From Vibrio sp. SCSIO 43136 (lineage in GTDB: Bacteria > Pseudomonadota > Gammaproteobacteria > Enterobacterales > Vibrionaceae), in the NCBI RefSeq assembly GCF_023716565.1, contig NZ_CP071849.1:744001-808000 (forward strand): a stretch of DNA of 64,000 nt. Direction: 5' to 3'. Each line of letters starts with the position of its first letter. Positions within the stretch are counted from its first letter, which is position 1. Position numbers and translations under genes: made by a program. Shown in pieces: positions 8,647 through 52,395 of this stretch. The notes below the pieces were generated by a model that was given only the letters and a program-made list of their open reading frames with translations, made no database searches and was not told the DNA's origin.

Positions 8647-9843
8647 ATGTCTTCTGCCTTTTACAACCAAATTCAGAACCAGCTTGAAGAAGTAAAACAA
8701 GAGGGTTTGTACAAATCAGAGCGAGTGATCACTTCACAACAGCAAGCGGCGGTTGCCATCTCTACTGGCCAAGAAGTATTAAACTTCTGTGCAAATAACT
8801 ACCTAGGCTTGGCGAATCACCCTGCGTTGATTGAAGCAGGCAAAGCAGGTATGGACAGCAACGGCTTCGGCATGGCGTCAGTACGCTTTATCTGTGGTAC
8901 CCAAGATATTCATAAAGAGCTTGAGCAAAAGCTGTCTACCTTCCTAGGTAAAGAAGACACGATTCTTTACACCTCTTGTTTCGATGCGAATACAGGTTTG
9001 TTCGAAACCATCCTTGGTAAAGAAGACGCAATCATTTCTGATGCACTTAACCACGCCTCAATCATTGATGGTGTCCGTCTTTGTAAAGCGATGCGTTACC
9101 GCTACGCAAACAATGATATGGCTGAGCTAGAAGCACAACTTATTGCTGCAACTGAAGCTGGTGCTCGTCACAAGCTGATTGTGACTGACGGTGTGTTCTC
9201 TATGGATGGTGTGGTTGCTAACCTGCCAGCAATTTGTGACCTTGCTGATAAGTACGATGCACTGGTTATGGTCGATGACTCGCACGCAGTAGGTTTCATG
9301 GGCGAAACCGGCGCAGGTACACCTGAATTCCATGACGTGGTTGATCGCATTGATATCATTACAGGTACTCTTGGTAAAGCGATGGGTGGCGCATCAGGCG
9401 GTTACACATCTGGTAAGAAAGAGGTGATTGATTGGTTACGTCAACGCTCTCGTCCATACTTGTTCTCTAACTCTGTCGCTCCTGCGATCGTTAATGCTTC
9501 TATCCGTGTATTGGATCTGCTCCAAGAAAGTGGCGAGCTACGTACTCACCTTTGGGAAAACGCTGCGCACTTCCGTACTCGTATGAGTGAAGCTGGCTTT
9601 ACCTTAGCTGGTGCAGATCATGCCATTATTCCAATCATGCTGGGTGATGCAAAAGTTGCTGCTGAGTTTGCCGAGCGTGCACTAGAGAAAGGTATTTATG
9701 TGGTTGGATTCTCTTTCCCTGTTGTACCTAAAGGCCAAGCGCGTATTCGTACGCAAATGTCTGCAGCACATAGCCGTGAACAACTAGATCGTGCTATCGA
9801 TGTATTTATCGAAGTGGGCACCGACATGGGAGTGATCAGCTAA
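8647..9843 (+). CDS. kbl: Glycine C-acetyltransferase (2-amino-3-ketobutyrate CoA ligase)
   Basis: A 398-residue fold-type I PLP enzyme that cleaves 2-amino-3-ketobutyrate with CoA to give glycine and acetyl-CoA, the second step of threonine degradation. The PLP lysine is Lys244 in [13 protein letters not shown]; the cofactor-ring motif VDDSHAVGF is at 209-217. Length and active-site numbering match E. coli Kbl. AAAAGGATCGAG precedes the ATG. The stop codon overlaps the tdh start (TAATG), so the two genes are translationally coupled. Confidence 0.97.
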
Positions 9844-10874
9844 TGAAAATTAAAGCACTCGCAAAACTTAAGCCTGAAGAAGGCATTTGGATGACAGAAG
9901 TGGACAAGCCTGAGCTTGGCCACAATGACATCCTGATCAAAATTAAAAAGACAGCGATTTGTGGTACTGACGTTCACATCTACAACTGGGACGAATGGTC
10001 ACAAAACACCATTCCTGTACCTATGGTTGTAGGTCATGAATACGTGGGTGAAGTGGTTGGTATTGGCCAAGAAGTACGCGGCTTTGAAATTGGCGACCGC
10101 GTCTCAGGCGAAGGTCACATCACCTGTGGTCACTGTCGTAACTGCCGTGGCGGTCGAACTCACTTATGCCGTAATACGGTTGGTGTGGGTGTAAACCGCA
10201 CGGGTGCTTTCTCTGAGTACCTAGTGATCCCAGCGTTCAATGCTTTCAAGATCCCAGCTGAGATCTCAGATGATCTTGCCTCTATTTTTGACCCGTTTGG
10301 CAATGCTGTACACACAGCGCTGTCATTTGACCTTGTGGGTGAAGATGTATTGATCACAGGCGCAGGCCCAATCGGCATTATGGCGGCAGCGGTAGCAAAA
10401 CACGTAGGCGCACGCCACGTTGTTATCACTGATGTAAACGAATACCGTTTAGAGCTGGCAGAAAAGATGGGCGTGACACGCGCCGTTAACGTTGCTAAGC
10501 AAGACCTAAAAGAAGTCATGGCTGAGCTAGGTATGACCGAGGGTTTCGACGTTGGCCTAGAAATGTCAGGCGTTCAATCGGCATTTAGCTCAATGCTAGA
10601 AACAATGAACCACGGTGGCCGTATCGCACTGCTAGGCATTCCACCATCGGACATGGGTATTGATTGGAACCAAGTGATCTTCAAAGGTCTAGTGATCAAA
10701 GGCATTTACGGCCGAGAAATGTTCGAGACTTGGTACAAGATGGCATCTTTGATTCAATCAGGCTTGGATTTGACGCCAATTATCACTCACCACTTCAAAG
10801 TTGATGACTTTGAAAAAGGCTTTGAGGCTATGCGTAGCGGGGCTTCTGGTAAAGTGATACTTGATTGGGAATAG
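9843..10874 (+). CDS. tdh: L-threonine 3-dehydrogenase
   Basis: A 343-residue zinc-dependent medium-chain dehydrogenase that oxidises threonine to 2-amino-3-ketobutyrate with NAD+. Catalytic zinc ligands Cys40, His65 and Glu66 (GHEYVGE) are present. Structural zinc cysteines are 95, 98, 101 and 109. The NAD-binding motif GAGPIG is at 173-178. The last 50 or so codons overlap the prophage attachment region: a divergent second copy of the same 3' end occurs at 48996-49153. The gene here is therefore probably a hybrid, with its 3' end supplied by the phage and function preserved. Confidence 0.97.
10717..10747. repeat. attL core (31-bp direct repeat inside tdh)
   Basis: Identical for 31 bp to 48996-49026. 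To its right the two tdh copies diverge at about one base in seven, until a second identical stretch of 27 bp at the very end of the gene (starting TTCTGGTAAAG). The first block is the best candidate crossover site; the terminal 27 bp is the alternative. Confidence 0.75.
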
Positions 10875-10972: not shown

Positions 10973-11013
10973 GACCCAATAAAGACCCAAGGCCAAGAAT
11001 GAAAATGACCCAA
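10973..11013. repeat. Three spaced GACCCAA repeats (candidate integrase arm sites)
   Basis: GACCCAA occurs at 10973, 10984 and 11007; the third forms the left arm of the terminator stem. Spacing is 11 and 23 bp. The right-hand element end has GCCCCAA in the same three places with spacing 11 and 22. This is the layout expected of integrase arm-binding sites. Confidence 0.5.
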
Positions 11014-11030
11014 AATCTTTGGGTCATTTT
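11002..11030. terminator. Terminator between tdh and integrase
   Basis: A perfect 13-bp stem AAAATGACCCAAA / TTTGGGTCATTTT with a three-base loop. It can act in both directions for the convergent tdh and int genes. Confidence 0.8.
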
Positions 11031-11065
11031 CATATCTAACTAATTGTTGTTAATGAATAAATTTA

Positions 11066-12325
11066 TCAATTTACAACACGCAACTGTACACTGGACTCCT
11101 TCCTAACCTTCTCCAATTCGCCCCAAGCACGATCGGACTCTTTCTTATTAGACTCCTTCAGCCACTTACCATAGATTTTTGCAACCATCGTAATATCAGA
11201 GTGCCCCATTTGCTGAGCCAGGTAACTGACATTCACATTTGCATGAGTGATCATCCAACTGGCGTAGGTGTGCCTCAATTGGTACTGGCAACGGTGCTCA
11301 ACATCAACCCTATCGGTTAAGTTCTTCCAGATTCGGCTTAACCCACGTTTCCCATAATAATCAAACTCACTGCCTTTCTGCTTTCTAACCACTTTCGGAT
11401 TAAACACAAATCGAATCTTATCCTTACGAACGCCTTTGTCCGGCAATTCTATATCGTAAACCTTAGGCTCGAAGAAGTAGGTAAGGTGCCTTTGAGCTTT
11501 AAGTGCTTCAACCACTGGCTCTAGCATATCTACGAAACGCTCCTTATCTGTCTTGGTGGTTTTAAGCCCTCGATCTTCATAGGTAGAACGGCGAATATGC
11601 ATGGTTCGATTTTCAAAGTCGATATCTTCCCATGCCAGGGCGCAGGCCTCTCCACTTCGTAACCCCGAGTAGGCTAAGAGTGTCAGCAGGTTTCTGTGCT
11701 GTAGCTGGTGGCTCGCTCGTAAAACAGTCTCAAACTCTTCCATTGAGAACGGGTTGATATCGGGCTCACTCTCTTTCACTCGCTTAAGGATATGAGAGTG
11801 GTCTCGATCGATATACTCCATCTCGAACAGCCACTTGATGAAAGCTTTAACCGTTACTATGTTTCGGTTGATGGTTCGTCCACTTCGACCTTTCACCAGC
11901 TCATTACGGTAGCTAACAAGAGAGCGGGGAGAAATAGTGTCGCAACGTCGATTCTCTCCGTATATTTCTAGGAAATCCCTTATAACCCAAGAATATCGTT
12001 TGAATGTGGATCGCCTTACATCATGCTCAAGGTCTTTAAGGTACTTTTCTGAAAGGTGCTTCATGGTAAGCGCAATCGGCTTACCACTGGCGTGTTTAGA
12101 ATTGGGGAAATGAGCAGCGTAATTAAATGTACCCATTTCAATTTCGTATTTGATGGTTTGCAGTTTGAGTTCTGCAAACCTTACATTCTGCTTAGTCTGG
12201 GGAATACCAAGCGTTTCTCGTTTTCTTTCACCATTGTAAGTGAAGGATATTCTGATGCTGTTCCCGTGGGGTACAACTCCCTTTGGGTAATCTTCTTTTG
12301 TTAATGGGGCTGTTCTCGGTGCCAT
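11066..12325 (-). CDS. int: Phage tyrosine integrase
   Basis: A 419-residue tyrosine recombinase. An N-terminal arm-binding region (about 18-70) precedes a SAM-like core-binding domain (about 85-175) and the catalytic domain. Catalytic residues visible are Arg223 (SGLRSGE), Arg351 (QLRHTYASW), His375 (MGHSD) and Tyr385 (KIYGKW). It sits beside attL, convergent with tdh. Its start overlaps the end of the Xis-like gene by 25 bp, so the two are coupled. It presumably integrates at the tdh 3' end. Confidence 0.95.
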   Translation of the reverse strand: MAPRTAPLTKEDYPKGVVPHGNSIRISFTYNGERKRETLGIPQTKQNVRFAELKLQTIKYEIEMGTFNYAAHFPNSKHASGKPIALTMKHLSEKYLKDLEHDVRRSTFKRYSWVIRDFLEIYGENRRCDTISPRSLVSYRNELVKGRSGRTINRNIVTVKAFIKWLFEMEYIDRDHSHILKRVKESEPDINPFSMEEFETVLRASHQLQHRNLLTLLAYSGLRSGEACALAWEDIDFENRTMHIRRSTYEDRGLKTTKTDKERFVDMLEPVVEALKAQRHLTYFFEPKVYDIELPDKGVRKDKIRFVFNPKVVRKQKGSEFDYYGKRGLSRIWKNLTDRVDVEHRCQYQLRHTYASWMITHANVNVSYLAQQMGHSDITMVAKIYGKWLKESNKKESDRAWGELEKVRKESSVQLRVVN

Positions 12326-16001: not shown

Positions 16002-16664
16002 TTATCTCAATTTCCATTTAGCATCGATAACGACGCCAACAATTTTACAATCACCATTAATAGGCATTGGTTGATATATAGGGTTAGGGTTTAGGGGCTT
16101 AAGGAACTTGAGGCCAGCCTCTAAAATCAGTTGTTTGAACGTCACTTCATTTACGCTTTTTAACTTAGCTACAACAAATGATTTATTTATAGCTTCGACC
16201 TCTGGATCGACAAGAATATACATCCCGTCAGGAAAACTAAGTCCTGAAGGTGTTGTCATCGAGTCTCCAATAACCTTTACCCAGAATGAGTTTTCGCTAG
16301 CACGTTCGGTGGTTTCTAGATATTCATCTACAGCTGATAAGTGGTACGGCTCTACAGCTTCCATCCAGGCACCAGCAGAGACCATGCTAATAACAGGAAA
16401 CGCAGTGTTGTTGGAGCAAACTTGTGACTCAACAGGAACAATATTACTAGTTATTTCTCGCTCACCTTGCCCTGTCTTCAACCAGTTCGGGTTAACTCTT
16501 AGGACCTCACAAACTGCAATCAAATCTTTAGGTTTGTTTTCATCCCTTTCCCAGAAAACAACAGATGTAGCAGAAACTCCAACACGCTTGGCTAGTTCTT
16601 GCTGACTTAGTTTTAGTTCCTTTCGAACACGGCGAATACGTTCGCCAATAGTCTCTTTGCTCAT
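16002..16664 (-). CDS. cI: CI-like phage repressor with S24 self-cleavage domain
   Basis: A 220-residue repressor. The N-terminal XRE helix-turn-helix is at about 7-62 (IGERIRRVRKELKLSQQELAKR is its first half). The C-terminal LexA/S24 domain has the cleavage pair Ala97-Gly98 (VSAGAW), nucleophile Ser135 (GDSM) and Lys167 (VVAKLKS). It should hold lysogeny and be inactivated by RecA filaments. The ATG at 16664 matches the family N terminus; an ATG at 16691, abutting the operator, would add nine residues and could be read from a leaderless transcript, as in lambda. Divergent from cro. Confidence 0.93.
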   Translation of the reverse strand: MSKETIGERIRRVRKELKLSQQELAKRVGVSATSVVFWERDENKPKDLIAVCEVLRVNPNWLKTGQGEREITSNIVPVESQVCSNNTAFPVISMVSAGAWMEAVEPYHLSAVDEYLETTERASENSFWVKVIGDSMTTPSGLSFPDGMYILVDPEVEAINKSFVVAKLKSVNEVTFKQLILEAGLKFLKPLNPNPIYQPMPINGDCKIVGVVIDAKWKLR

Positions 16665-16684
16665 GTTAGTTATCTTACATGGTG

Positions 16685-16727
16685 TTGACATAAGTTTACT
16701 TACATGACCTAATAGTAAGGAAACTTA
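16685..16727. promoter_or_regulatory. Right operators and rightward promoter (pR)
   Basis: TTGACA (16685-16690) is followed by a perfect operator TAAGTTTACTTA (16691-16702) and then an AT-rich -10 region (CCTAATAG, 16708-16715). A second operator with one mismatch, TAAGGAAACTTA, lies at 16716-16727, 25 bp from the first centre to centre. This is the repressor/Cro switch. Confidence 0.8.
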
Positions 16728-16744
16728 GTAATGAGATTGAATTT

Positions 16745-16963
16745 ATGACTGGATCACTACCCCGAATCGAAATGAAAGAAGCAATTGCATATTTTGGTAC
16801 CAAGCAAAAAATTGCTGATGAACTTGGTATCAGTCATGCAGCTGTGAGCCAGTGGGGGGAGTACGTAGCCAAAAGCCGTACATATCAGCTTCACATGTTG
16901 ATGAACACAAAAGACTTTCAAAACGCCATGGGGAAGCAAGTAAACCAAAGCTGTGAGAAATGA
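16745..16963 (+). CDS. cro: Cro-like repressor
   Basis: A 72-residue Cro-type DNA-binding protein: MKEAIAYFGTKQKIADELG followed by ISHAAVSQWGEYV gives the helix-turn-helix, the usual Cro/YdaS arrangement. It is the first rightward gene, divergent from the repressor and next to the two right operators. Its stop codon overlaps the start of the CII-like gene (ATGA). Confidence 0.88.
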   Translation: MTGSLPRIEMKEAIAYFGTKQKIADELGISHAAVSQWGEYVAKSRTYQLHMLMNTKDFQNAMGKQVNQSCEK

Positions 16964-17475
16964 TCATGCCCCATCAAACCCAAGTAGGGCGAAACCACCA
17001 TTTTCTATCAGGAGTTATGCGCTTCAAGAAAGCTAACTCTGTACGAGCGTTAGCTCTAAGGCTTGGTTACTCAGAGCGTGAGTATGAAAACAGGGTCAAG
17101 GCAAAGTTCACCATCAACCGAACAGAAGAGCGAATGAACGTGGCGGACTTGGTGGGCTTCACCAAGGCGTCTCGGGATTACTCAATGGTGTATGGCATCT
17201 GTAGCGAGGTTGGGTTAACCCAGCCAGTGCCAGTGGACTTAAACGCCAACACCAACTTAAACACAGAATTTTTAGTAGCCGCCAAGGCCTTTGGCCAGCT
17301 AGCGGAGCAACTCAACATGCCGACCATCTCACAGAACGGTGTGGTGCGCTTAACTCAATCGGTTCAAGCGCTGGTGGCCTCGGCCATGACGATTGGCTAT
17401 GCAGCAGAAAACAGATTTGGCGGTTTGAGTATGGCCGTCACCTTTGGGGATATAGCAGTAGGAACAGTGATATGA
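16960..17475 (+). CDS. Phage regulatory CII-like protein
   Basis: A 171-residue protein of the phage CII regulatory family found downstream of cro. The N-terminal part (MRFKKANSVRALALRLGYSE) resembles a helix-turn-helix that reads promoter DNA. The C-terminal half is helical (FLVAAKAFGQLAEQLNM and VVRLTQSVQALVASAM). It overlaps cro by four bases. By family analogy it would activate the repressor or integrase promoters at the lysis-lysogeny decision. Confidence 0.75.
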   Translation: MIMPHQTQVGRNHHFLSGVMRFKKANSVRALALRLGYSEREYENRVKAKFTINRTEERMNVADLVGFTKASRDYSMVYGICSEVGLTQPVPVDLNANTNLNTEFLVAAKAFGQLAEQLNMPTISQNGVVRLTQSVQALVASAMTIGYAAENRFGGLSMAVTFGDIAVGTVI

Positions 17476-47821: not shown

Positions 47822-47840
47822 TGGTGTACTATTTACACTA
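47822..47840. promoter_or_regulatory. Operator 1 of right-end module
   Basis: TGGTGT-N7-ACACTA upstream of the HTH gene. It shares the GTGTAC...ACACTA form with two sites at 48046 and 48078. Confidence 0.65.
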
Positions 47841-47866
47841 CTTTGATTAGGTAATAGAGGCGTGAC

Positions 47867-48070
47867 ATGACACATGAAGATTACAAGGCAGCTCGTGCAG
47901 AGCTTGGATATAACGTTCAAGGATGGATTGAGAAGCTAGGAATATCAATGGACACGCACAAAAGCTATAACAGTGGTCGAAAAGAAGTGATGCAGCCAGT
48001 AGTGAATCACATCAATACACTACTTTCGCTAAATAAAATCCAAAAAAGTGTACTAGAAACACTAAAATAG
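47867..48070 (+). CDS. Small HTH regulator of right-end module
   Basis: A 67-residue protein with a helix-turn-helix (YKAARAELGYNVQGWIEKLG then ISMDTHKSYNSGRKE), like short phage XRE regulators that recognise a start of 'LG-x-x-x-W'. It is flanked by three copies of one operator: one before the gene, one over its last codons and one in the next promoter. Autoregulation and control of the downstream small genes are therefore likely. Confidence 0.7.
   Translation: MTHEDYKAARAELGYNVQGWIEKLGISMDTHKSYNSGRKEVMQPVVNHINTLLSLNKIQKSVLETLK
48046..48064. promoter_or_regulatory. Operator 2 of right-end module
   Basis: AAGTGT-N7-ACACTA overlapping the last codons of the HTH gene, 32 bp (centre to centre) from operator 3. 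Confidence 0.65.
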
Positions 48071-48071
48071 C

Positions 48072-48100
48072 TTGCGTTAGTGTACGTGAGACACTATAAT
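48072..48100 (+). promoter_or_regulatory. Promoter with operator 3 in its spacer
   Basis: TTGCGT (48072-48077) and TATAAT (48095-48100) are 17 bp apart. Operator 3, TAGTGT-N7-ACACTA (48078-48096), fills the spacer, so bound HTH protein would block initiation. Confidence 0.75.
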
Positions 48101-48152: not shown

Positions 48153-48260
48153 ATGCTTGATAAAGTGGACAAACTCTTAGGTATCATACTCAAGTTAGTT
48201 CAAATTGGAGTCCTGTTAAAATTCCCTGAACTACTTGAGATGATACTAAAGAGCCTTTAA
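48153..48260 (+). CDS. 35-residue hydrophobic peptide
   Basis: AAGGAAATCGG precedes an ATG encoding a very hydrophobic, amphipathic peptide (MLDKVDKLLGIILKLVQIGV, ending LEMILKSL). Small membrane-active toxin peptides look like this. It is the first frame after the operator-controlled promoter. No family recognised. Confidence 0.45.
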   Translation: MLDKVDKLLGIILKLVQIGVLLKFPELLEMILKSL

Positions 48261-48309
48261 AGACACGGGGGAGGAAACTCCCCCACATCAAGCACTGTAG
48301 CATAAAGTT

Positions 48310-48408
48310 ATGAAAAAAGAGACTAAAGACTGGCTGAAAGCAGCCGCAATAGCAGTAATTGGCGTAGGTGCCTGTTACGTAGGTCTAACTTACTACTGGG
48401 GCTTCTAG
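48310..48408 (+). CDS. 32-residue single-helix membrane peptide
   Basis: MKKETKDWLKAAAIAVIGVG continues to one transmembrane helix ending YYWGF. It follows the 35-residue peptide by 49 bases. A weak ribosome site. May be a phage accessory peptide. Confidence 0.4.
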   Translation: MKKETKDWLKAAAIAVIGVGACYVGLTYYWGF

Positions 48409-48476
48409 CCTTATGTGCAAACGTGTCTAAGCGTCAGCTTGGCGCTTAGGCCAATTAACTTATAGGGAAAATTTAA

Positions 48477-48866
48477 ATGTACCCACCTGTTGGAGAGTGT
48501 GGCCGCTTTAAGCTACAAATGTATCGTGGTAAGAAAGCGAAAAGCGAGAGGTTGTCAAACCAGTTTGCTAGTGACCCTGGGGATTACGGTTGTGGAGAGT
48601 ACTGGGCAGACAATTATGAATTTGCCAAAGGCTACGGTGATGTACAGCAAAAGCTAATTGAATTGGACTGTGTTTACCATATTCCTGCGGAGGAATTGAC
48701 ACAGCTAATAGAACAGTTTCGAACTTGCAAAGTGCAAGATGGCCACGAACAGAGGCTAATCAATTCTCAAAGATTGACAAATCATTTTAAACAACAAGGG
48801 TACCAAGCAGTTCTTACTACTGGATATGAGGATTTTACAACGAAAGGGTTGTGTATATTTGCTTAA
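48477..48866 (+). CDS. Moron protein with ADP-ribosyltransferase-like pattern
   Basis: A 129-residue protein. YRG (residues 16-18), then GDYGCGEYWADNYEFAKGY (about 36-54) and LIELDCVYHIPAEEL (about 60-75) follow the order of ART-fold proteins: Arg motif, G-x-G-x-Y-W core with helix carrying A-x-x-Y, then strand. A clear catalytic Glu motif is not certain. It is the last gene before attR, in a typical moron position. The ART call is a pattern-level inference. Confidence 0.5.
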   Translation: MYPPVGECGRFKLQMYRGKKAKSERLSNQFASDPGDYGCGEYWADNYEFAKGYGDVQQKLIELDCVYHIPAEELTQLIEQFRTCKVQDGHEQRLINSQRLTNHFKQQGYQAVLTTGYEDFTTKGLCIFA

Positions 48867-48995: not shown

Positions 48996-49026
48996 AAATG
49001 TTCGAGACTTGGTACAAGATGGCATC
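48996..49026. repeat. attR core (31-bp direct repeat)
   Basis: Identical to 10717-10747. It starts the second partial copy of the tdh 3' end. Confidence 0.75.
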
Positions 49027-49153
49027 ACTGATCCAATCGGGTCTGGATCTGTCCCCAATCATCACCCATAACTTCAAGGTTGATGACTTCCAAAAAGGCT
49101 TCGACACTATGCGTAGCGGGCTTTCTGGTAAAGTGATACTTGATTGGGAGTGA
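48996..49153 (+). pseudogene. tdh: Displaced 3' fragment of tdh
   Basis: The frame reads [20 protein letters not shown], continues to [13 protein letters not shown] and stops TGA. It matches the last 51 codons of tdh with many silent changes and a few substitutions (Thr-Pro to Ser-Pro, His to Asn, Glu-Ala to Asp-Thr). It has no start or upstream part. It is either the original chromosomal 3' end displaced by the phage or the attachment copy of the neighbouring element. Confidence 0.85.
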
Positions 49154-49339: not shown

Positions 49340-50290
49340 CTAGAAGTGGTATTTCATTATCTGCTTATGTTCTTTGGGGTACTTCGCACGCCTGTACTTA
49401 ACTCGAGCTTGATACTTTTTAGCTTGCTCAACATTATTTTTGTATGCAACAGCTCGTTCATAGCAGCAGGCTTTTCCATTGTTGTAACGGTAGTATCCAA
49501 CCACCTCCTGAGTTAAAAGAGCTTCAAGTCTATGCCAATGATCACTCGCTTTCAGTCTGGCAACTAGTCCGGAATCAATCCAGTTTAGTATGTTGGCCAT
49601 GTTGTCTATCATAATCTTCAGACTATGGATAGTGTGTCTAGGTTTTTGGGGAATAAATCCGGCAGTACCTGTTGGGCTAATCTCTCTAAATTTTAGGAGT
49701 GAGTCATGATGACCTAGACGGTTTCGTAATAGGCGAACCTTATCTAGCAAATCTCTCAATTGGTTGATAAACGAGATGTCGTGAGATGGTGCGTGAGGGA
49801 ACATGTTTTGCAAGACACTTTGTCGAATTTGGTTGAATGAACGGTGTCTCAGCTGGTTGATTGCATTTGGCCAAAAGGCAAATGTAAGTTTGGCAACTAC
49901 AGCATCAGGTGATACAGCCTTACCCGCCTGATTTAGTTGATAAATAGCATCTTGCAGTTTACCTAGTGAACCAGTATATGATACGGAGCCATTTTGGTTG
50001 TTTCTTCGTCTGCCATTGAGCTGGTGTGGGATGTGCATTGGAGCGTTTTGTGCTGATATGACACTGATACCCATCCAATCAAAGCTATCGCTATTGTTTG
50101 GGCAATAGTGAGCAGAAAGAGCAAAATGAACTGTATTTCTCAACACAATTTCAAAATCGTTCATTACTGCCAAGAATGATGACGATAGAACTTGATGCCA
50201 GCGGTAAATCCCTTGAAAGTCATCTTTTCCTGTTGTTTGGAAAAAATTCTCGAAGGTTACTTTGCGTGGAGTGGAAAGGTAGTCATGCAT
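49340..50290 (-). CDS. Abi-family protein with HEPN motif (abortive infection candidate)
   Basis: A 316-residue protein of the Abi_2/AbiD-F type. The N-terminal region (QGIYRWHQVLSSSFLAVMND) and the central LRNRLGHHDSLL (about residues 190-203) give the R-x4-6-H motif of HEPN RNases. The C-terminal 60 residues are basic. Abi_2 proteins abort phage infection; several HEPN members cleave RNA. It occupies the place where an integrase would be expected beside the tdh fragment, and is read toward it. Confidence 0.8.
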   Translation of the reverse strand: MHDYLSTPRKVTFENFFQTTGKDDFQGIYRWHQVLSSSFLAVMNDFEIVLRNTVHFALSAHYCPNNSDSFDWMGISVISAQNAPMHIPHQLNGRRRNNQNGSVSYTGSLGKLQDAIYQLNQAGKAVSPDAVVAKLTFAFWPNAINQLRHRSFNQIRQSVLQNMFPHAPSHDISFINQLRDLLDKVRLLRNRLGHHDSLLKFREISPTGTAGFIPQKPRHTIHSLKIMIDNMANILNWIDSGLVARLKASDHWHRLEALLTQEVVGYYRYNNGKACCYERAVAYKNNVEQAKKYQARVKYRRAKYPKEHKQIMKYHF

Positions 50291-51732: not shown

Positions 51733-52395
51733 GTGAAAAAAGTAGCTGTTGTTCTATCTGGTTGCGGTTTTTTGGATGGTGCTGAGATTCGTGAATCAGT
51801 ACTAACGCTATTAGCATTAAATATTGAGGGAATTGAGTTTGACATCTTTGCACCGGATATCGAGCAGTTTCACGTGGTTAACCACATAGAGGGAGCACCA
51901 ATTGAGGGTGTATCGAGAAATGTTTTACAAGAGGCAGCTCGTATTGCTCGAGGTGATATTAGTGCACTGGATAACCTAGTGGTTGATGAATATGACGGGC
52001 TTGTTATTCCTGGCGGTTTTGGAGTGGCAAAAAACTTATCTAACTTTGCATTTGATGGCGCCGATGGTGAAGTGATTTCTAGTGTTGGCCGCACGATAGA
52101 AAGCTTTAATAGCCATAATAAACCAATCGCAGCGGTATGTATTGCACCTAGTATTGTTGCCATGATTCTTGGGGAAAAGAAGCCGAGTTTGACCATTGGT
52201 AATGATATTGGTACTGCTTCAGAACTTGAGAAAACAGGAGCCATTCATAAAGAGTGTGCGACACGAGATTGCGTGGTTGATATCAATCACCTCTTGGTCT
52301 CCACACCTGCCTACATGGATGGTTCTGCGCAATTAAAAGATGTTTTTAGCGGTATAACGAAGACGGTGCAAGCGTTTGTACATCTAGCAAAGTGA
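51733..52395 (+). CDS. elbB: ElbB glyoxalase/DJ-1 superfamily protein
   Basis: A 220-residue protein matching ElbB (isoprenoid biosynthesis-associated glyoxalase) along its length: VVLSGCGFLDGAEIRESV, VVDEYDGLVIPGGFGVAKNL and the nucleophile elbow with Cys136 in AAVCIAPSIVAMIL. DJ-1/PfpI fold; glyoxalase III activity is reported for the E. coli homologue. GTG start with AGAGGA upstream. A strong terminator follows. Confidence 0.92.
   Translation: MKKVAVVLSGCGFLDGAEIRESVLTLLALNIEGIEFDIFAPDIEQFHVVNHIEGAPIEGVSRNVLQEAARIARGDISALDNLVVDEYDGLVIPGGFGVAKNLSNFAFDGADGEVISSVGRTIESFNSHNKPIAAVCIAPSIVAMILGEKKPSLTIGNDIGTASELEKTGAIHKECATRDCVVDINHLLVSTPAYMDGSAQLKDVFSGITKTVQAFVHLAK

Follow-up and report, generated by a model that had tools for sequence, protein, structure and literature searches.

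What does a regulator of 67 amino acids (aa), surrounded by three matching operators, control at the far end of a prophage, and at what moment in the life of that element? The question is raised by a 64-kb window (the whole stretch of DNA analysed; contig NZ_CP071849.1, positions 744,001 to 808,000) from Vibrio sp. SCSIO 43136, a source genome of two contigs and 4.97 Mb. Here, a helix-turn-helix (HTH) gene, three operators (O1 to O3), a promoter-like sequence (P3) and three cargo open reading frames (ORFs) form a cassette at the right end of a tailed-phage prophage. The O1-HTH-O2-O3 arrangement recurs on two other mobile elements with different cargo, and the HTH protein is, in the reading that we favour with reasonable confidence, an autorepressor that would allow the cargo to be expressed on DNA entry and then shut it off.

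Operators and promoters around the HTH gene

The XRE-type HTH protein, the proposed autorepressor, is encoded on the plus strand (47867-48070), with GAGG ahead of its ATG. The initial annotation had described one HTH gene with three operators of the same class, GTGTAC-N5-ACACTA, placed before the gene, over its last codons and in a promoter spacer, and all of this is borne out, with an exact reading at each of three 19-bp palindromes on the plus strand. O1 (TGGTGTACTATTTACACTA; 47822-47840) lies 45 bp upstream of the start codon and overlaps a -10-like TACTAT (47827-47832). O2 (AAGTGTACTAGAAACACTA; 48046-48064) lies within the final HTH codons (S-V-L-E-T-L), at +179 from the ATG, and O3 (TAGTGTACGTGAGACACTA; 48078-48096) follows 32 bp from O2, at +211, in the spacer of P3. 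The latter (48072-48100, plus strand) starts 2 bases past the HTH stop codon and consists of TTGCGT (48072-48077), an N17 spacer and TATAAT (48095-48100); the first 17 bases of O3 make up the full spacer and its last two overlap the -10. The earlier description of this promoter as strong holds for the perfect -10 and not for the -35, which shares just 3 of 6 bases with TTGACA, and a consensus promoter scan requiring at least 4 of 6 matches per hexamer listed neither P3 nor the HTH-gene promoter.

These palindromes are real and non-random, and are probable binding sites. In the 64 kb, TAGTGT-N7-ACACTA with at most one mismatch occurs only at O1, O2 and O3, with one further place, at 52080, having two mismatches, while 300 random order-1 Markov sequences of 64 kb each held a mean of 0.16 such sites (largest number, 3) and none of them (0/300) had three within 300 bp. 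A scoring matrix built from 10 family sites, O1-O3 among those 10, gives the operators 23.8-25.8 bits, and nothing else in the window (the same sites on the other strand excluded) scores above 9.8 bits. The top of this matrix scan includes no operator near the CI gene, which supports the suggested independence of the switch from CI. The shorter GTGT-N7-ACACTA has 9 matches in the source genome, 4 of them in the cassette, against 11 for a control pattern, and in the absence of genome-wide enrichment the regulon looks local.

The predicted structure of the HTH protein (AlphaFold2; predicted local distance difference test score, pLDDT, 95.4) comprises four helices. Its top predicted-fold match is Aca2 (residues 1-68), tied with Aca10, antitoxins and others, and the list of matches also holds Aca1, Aca7, HigA2, MqsA, C.Kpn2I, C.BclI and C.EcoT38I.

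Conservation of the switch on other mobile elements

The initial annotation had itself set lack of conservation of the arrangement as a refutation test, and the arrangement holds in two other mobile elements. A tblastn search of 72,556 plasmid records with the HTH protein matched three: Vibrio nigripulchritudo pVNTG3 and plasmids of Shewanella aestuarii and Alteromonas macleodii, at 67%, 57% and 49% identity, respectively. A search of IMG/VR by operator core and spacing alone returned 12 stretches, one of which (L092) encodes a 64% identical HTH protein; the other 11 contain no HTH relative (tblastn, E 0.01). Measured from the ATG, the sites stand at -45, +179 and +211 in the window and in L092, and at -47, +179 and +211 in pVNTG3, the positions of O2 and O3 being shared by 3 of 3 elements. 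The -10-like sequence overlapped by O1 is TAAAAT in L092 and TAATAT in pVNTG3, and O3 occupies an N17 promoter spacer in all three elements, a layout also present in the Shewanella plasmid (L078). The 39.6-kb L092 record has no further occurrence of GTGT-N7-ACAC, and in the 42.6-kb pVNTG3 the sites score 21.2-27.9 bits and the next best other place 10.1 bits.

The borders of the module show in its DNA identity. In ATG-anchored bins of 20 bp, pairwise identity is mostly 9-18 of 20 from about -60 to +240, with a dip to 3-5 of 20 in the bin from -20 to 0, and is mostly 1-9 of 20 outside this span, with single bins of up to 11; the conserved unit is therefore O1-HTH-O2-O3. What lies behind O3 turns over: two tiny ORFs and a 129-aa protein in the window, proteins of 84, 71 and 100 aa in pVNTG3, and of 79, 68, 59 and 59 aa in L092. 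Comparison of the cargo of these three elements gave no pair at E < 0.1, and none of the cargo proteins has a credible match of known function; the second L092 protein matches phrog_24705, a PHROG with no assigned function, and forms the best pair overall, itself weak, with the Shewanella cargo protein (44 residues aligned, E 0.004-0.014). This conserved arrangement with different cargo supports the earlier suggestion of a self-contained accessory cassette, and from its sequence the switch is apparently portable among mobile elements. Among 106 Vibrio plasmid records, pVNTG3 included, the second pVNTG3 gene behind O3 (71 aa; L077, 6627-6842) is covered by the alignment in 18 of the 20 matches listed, the phage-like pVP7-2 among the 18.

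The host elements differ in kind. L092 encodes ParA, a GpA-type terminase, a lambda-type portal, an S24 repressor and a tyrosine recombinase, and by this gene content it looks like a phage-plasmid. pVNTG3, which appears in one paper in the literature covered, a genome announcement (PMC7714859), carries type IV secretion genes, TraY and two antirestriction genes and is typed as non-mobilizable in PLSDB. A stretch of 2.4 kb with two hypothetical genes separates its HTH operon from TraY, and the operon is directed away from the transfer genes, which probably places it in the leading region.

The two more distant relatives retain less of the layout. In the Shewanella plasmid the HTH gene follows a 245-aa gene, whose promoter, TTGCAA-TGGTGTACCATATACAC-TATAAT with an N17 spacer, carries this operator at the spacer position of O3; neither O2 nor O3 turned up near the HTH gene, whose product lacks the S-V-x-x-T-L-K motif at its C-terminus. 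In 12 kb around the Alteromonas HTH gene there is no site of the GTGTAC class. Both HTH genes (L078, 6001-6210; L079, 6001-6177) are missing from the PLSDB gene tables, themselves incomplete. O2 is carried by the three family members that end in S-V-x-x-T-L-K, and the two members that lack the motif have no O2 that could be found; an operator embedded in the codons of its own regulator may explain this distribution. At the O2 codons the same codon is kept at 3 of 4 invariant residues, compared with 8 of 31 outside, which is the expected direction in numbers too few to be strong.

Relation to known regulatory systems

Among the closest known systems are the anti-CRISPR-associated (Aca) repressors, including Aca1, Aca2 and Aca10, which resemble the present switch in combining a small HTH protein, encoded on a mobile element, with a palindromic operator in a core promoter, and in the logic of autorepression that is proposed here. 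The 67-aa, four-helix protein of the window compares with Aca family means that are mostly 60-65 aa, Aca2 being longer (PMC9410906). Aca inverted repeats lie within the core promoter that they control, as O3 lies in the spacer of the predicted promoter P3 and its counterparts lie in those of pVNTG3, L092 and the Shewanella plasmid, and the Shewanella relative also has the order of an anti-CRISPR (acr) operon, acr followed by aca (PMC9410906), with cargo first and HTH last. In the window, by contrast, the regulator gene leads and has an operator to itself, a second operator-bearing promoter precedes the cargo, the HTH coding sequence contains a third operator, and the cargo has no match to acr-type families, the libraries of which need not contain every Acr. 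Aca2 further possesses a C-terminal dimerisation domain (PMC8434428) that the window protein lacks. The only Aca family model compared, Aca2_YdiL, gave 13.4 bits against a cut-off of 23.8, and this with the L092 HTH only.

Reg of p576, from the clade II plasmids related to Bacillus pLS20, is likewise an autorepressor that also controls separate promoters of accessory genes, and expression of its regulon stays high in the recipient as long as repressor has yet to accumulate, a behaviour that its authors compare to acr control (PMC8708921). Reg is, however, a ribbon-helix-helix protein acting at four promoters through dual TTATCCC heptamers, which precede the -35 and in two regions are found beyond the start as well (PMC8708921). 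In the IncN plasmids R46 and pKM101, ArdK and ArdR are annotated as regulators of antirestriction genes. They belong to the wider CUP regulon. ArdK has 113 aa, and a relation to it was rejected (no profile match to the window HTH; hhalign probability 0.2%). The C proteins of restriction-modification systems (C.Kpn2I, C.BclI, C.EcoT38I) have a similar HTH fold and are autoregulated via tandem, abutting operators, whereas O2 and O3 are 32 bp apart, and no restriction or methylase genes were recognised between 47711 and the right prophage border by ORF list or family searches.

The regulatory logic would be of a known kind, autorepressor-limited expression as in Aca and Reg. The regulator-first layout with three operators, the operator in the last codons of the regulator and the sharing of the module by three kinds of mobile element were not found in the literature covered, where no title or abstract opening concerned an O1-HTH-O2-O3 module; subscription papers are largely outside this coverage.

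Proposed mechanism and alternatives

The 67-aa protein, probably as a dimer, would read TRGTGTA-N5-TACACTA. On O1 it would cover the -10 of its own promoter, resulting in autoregulation, and on O3 it would cover the P3 spacer and block RNA polymerase. O2 lies three helical turns (32 bp) upstream of O3, a distance that suggests cooperativity, and may thereby aid occupation of O3, although second repeats are dispensable in the Aca1 and Aca2 promoters (PMC9410906). On entry of a phage or plasmid into a naive cell no repressor would be present, P3 would fire and the cargo would be made at once in a burst, until accumulation of the HTH protein closed both promoters and left the cargo low in the lysogen. 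The module of about 280-290 bp would move between mobile elements as a unit and be joined to varied small accessory genes.

The best-surviving alternative is lysogenic conversion, by which the cargo would serve the lysogen, superinfection exclusion being one such service, with the HTH protein only steadying its level. The cassette does lie between a tail-fibre gene and the right attachment site, a usual site of accessory genes, but three conserved operators, one of them within the cargo-promoter spacer, point to tight shut-off, and the same switch resides on a plasmid with transfer genes (pVNTG3), leaving this explanation unlikely. We also consider improbable a biphasic switch of the C-protein kind, in which HTH protein at O2 would first activate P3 and at O3 repress it later: the centre of O2 is at about -51 from the presumed P3 start, off the usual activating positions of about -41 or -61, C proteins score below Aca-type folds in the fold comparison, and Shewanella yielded only the spacer site.

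Somewhat harder to credit is a toxin-antitoxin or addiction module, with the HTH protein as antitoxin and repressor and with the tiny peptides, or a structured RNA over the first of them, as the toxic part. The antitoxins HigA2 and MqsA on the fold list and the membrane-active look of the 35- and 32-aa peptides agree with such a module, yet no such peptides are among the compared cargo ORFs of pVNTG3 and L092, the HTH protein has no extra domain for binding a toxin, and no toxin family was matched. That the palindromes arose by chance, as short sites do in large genomes and as the genomic count for the shorter pattern (9 against 11) might allow, is next to impossible, being refuted by the same geometry in three elements besides the want of any such cluster in the random windows.

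Under the autorepressor reading, a counter-defence role for the cargo would be a guess from the company it keeps, namely the antirestriction genes of pVNTG3, the Aca-like fold and the published anti-defence leading regions (PMC11541004). It is conceivable, though we would sooner doubt it, that the module is a portable on-arrival switch, shared in marine bacteria by temperate phages, phage-plasmids and plasmids, and that its unrelated cargo comprises undescribed counter-defence or takeover factors; equally tentative are the candidates that this would name here, that is, two tiny membrane peptides, a strongly folded RNA and the 129-aa protein. Genes associated with acr, and their regulatory sequences, have been used as bait for anti-CRISPR and anti-defence genes (PMC7648647, PMC11065993). 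A regulator-first switch of fixed geometry would, if real, offer a further, DNA-based bait for accessory genes acting at entry; operator geometry alone found the third element, L092, with no protein information, alongside 11 matches with no HTH relative. Operator spacing might in this way, if the on-arrival reading is true, be used to find undescribed accessory genes.

Cargo genes and the folded transcript

All three cargo ORFs are on the plus strand. The first (48153-48260, AAGGA ahead of its ATG) encodes a 35-aa amphipathic peptide with no family match and no DNA match among plasmids, and the second (48310-48408) a 32-aa peptide that resembles a membrane segment and has no credible family match; this corrects the earlier description of tiny hydrophobic peptides. 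The third (48477-48866) encodes the 129-aa protein, for which the initial annotation had suggested a possible ADP-ribosyltransferase (ART). This suggestion is left without support, as searches of Pfam, NCBIfam, PHROG, PADLOC and PDB sequences yielded nothing credible; a fold search gave nothing either, but says little with so poor a model (pLDDT 62.5). Relatives are absent from the phage and plasmid records and from 195 other genomes of the genus, and IMG/VR gave one, 60% identical (2902442256, locus L012). No HTH of the window family was found in this 7.4-kb locus, where the relative (region 900-1500) seems, by eye, to be flanked by integron attC-like repeats and adjoins a gene that presumably resembles DUF3800.

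The predicted transcript from P3 (48106-48480) folds strongly (z-score -6.3 against 100 shuffles) because of an imperfect hairpin of about 25 bp inside the first ORF (48174-48253) and a GC hairpin behind it, GGGGGAG-GAAA-CTCCCCC (48267-48284), which lies between the tiny ORFs and has no T run on this strand; a 12-bp hairpin (48425-48451) precedes the third ORF, all three being on the plus strand. Of 693 windows of 110 nucleotides (nt) on the prophage plus strand (30 shuffles per window), 48181-48290 ranks first at z -7.4, and two others reach -7.2. The minus strand of the first hairpin folds too (z -6.5). For the 230 and 375 nt behind O3, the z-scores are -0.07 and -0.4 in L092 and 1.4 and -2.7 in pVNTG3. 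From these folding results the first ORF may work as RNA, peptide or both. A minus-strand match to Rfam rli48 (29.6 bits, gathering score 100) is sub-threshold and was not believed.

Wider occurrence of the operator and HTH classes

A scan of IMG/VR for TTG-N4-RGTGTA-N6-ACACTATWAT gave 10 stretches. The viral contigs L112, L115 and L117 have TTG-N4-AGTGTACA-N-TGTACACTATAAT promoters and, downstream on the same strand after at least one other ORF, an HTH with K-S-W-D-x-G-R, which in L112 forms the end of a 174-aa ORF. The motif D-[TV]-x-K-S-[WY]-x-x-G-R, picked post hoc from the matches themselves, occurs in 4 of 10 promoter-operator loci (L092 included) and in 0 of 67 looser-pattern loci (Fisher P 1.6e-4), the latter being 58 tandem-pattern and 9 operator-spacing loci, with L092 counted in the other set and two duplicates dropped. 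A wider class of HTH proteins that bear this motif and read GTGTA..TACAC in promoter spacers may exist.

Relatives of the HTH protein were absent from 50,697 phage records at E 0.01 and from GTDB contigs, and IMG/VR gave none that could be confirmed, whether queried with the protein alone or with an alignment of 4 rows. Ten phage records matched by the pVNTG3 HTH (E 0.06-0.09, 32-35% identity) were set aside. Weak matches beyond the source genome came from 2 of 196 genus genomes (L010, L011), 2 of 369 of the class (L081, L082) and 2 of 227 of the genus (L093, L094); that of L010 overlaps a long ORF on the opposite strand, and the other five were set aside on low scores. A search of the 227 genus genomes with cassette DNA found itself and two short matches, and the tandem-operator pattern occurred in the source genome only, among these 227 and among 295 order genomes (the sets overlap). 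In IMG/VR a looser tandem pattern gave 58 stretches, none with an HTH relative (tblastn), and a promoter pattern gave L072 and L073; the 65-aa HTH of L072 has a different recognition stretch and was rejected.

The prophage and its surroundings

The prophage spans about 10.7-49.1 kb of the window and is probably siphovirus-like. On the minus strand it encodes an integrase (11066-12325) and a CI-like repressor (16002-16691), and it further includes a match to a CII-like activator (16960-17475) and genes for replication, terminase, portal, major head, tape-measure and central fibre proteins. A gene for a zinc alcohol/threonine dehydrogenase (9843-10874) harbours it at the 3' end, copies of that end forming attL (10717-10870) and, at the right prophage border, attR (48996-49149), the two sharing exact repeats of 31 and 27 bp. 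The cassette comprises all DNA from the end of the last tail gene (47711) to attR, and its last gene stops 130 bp short of attR; since it fills this interval, the earlier placement at the far end of the prophage is correct. In 2 of 10 matching phage-collection records (H7, H8) an L-threonine 3-dehydrogenase is annotated at the right attachment copy. Vibrio phage PQ189364 and others with attachment DNA in the same gene are of a different phage type, and their end annotations, which were compared without an operator search, show no such cassette.

Between attL and the integrase gene lies a strong hairpin (11001-11050 of the window, z -6.4). Directly beyond attR, the minus strand encodes an Abi_2-like protein (49340-50290; Pfam Abi_2, E 2.6e-5, 25.1 bits against a cut-off of 25.6; PADLOC model PD-T4-5, E 3.4e-15), which makes this neighbour of the prophage likely to be a phage-defence gene.
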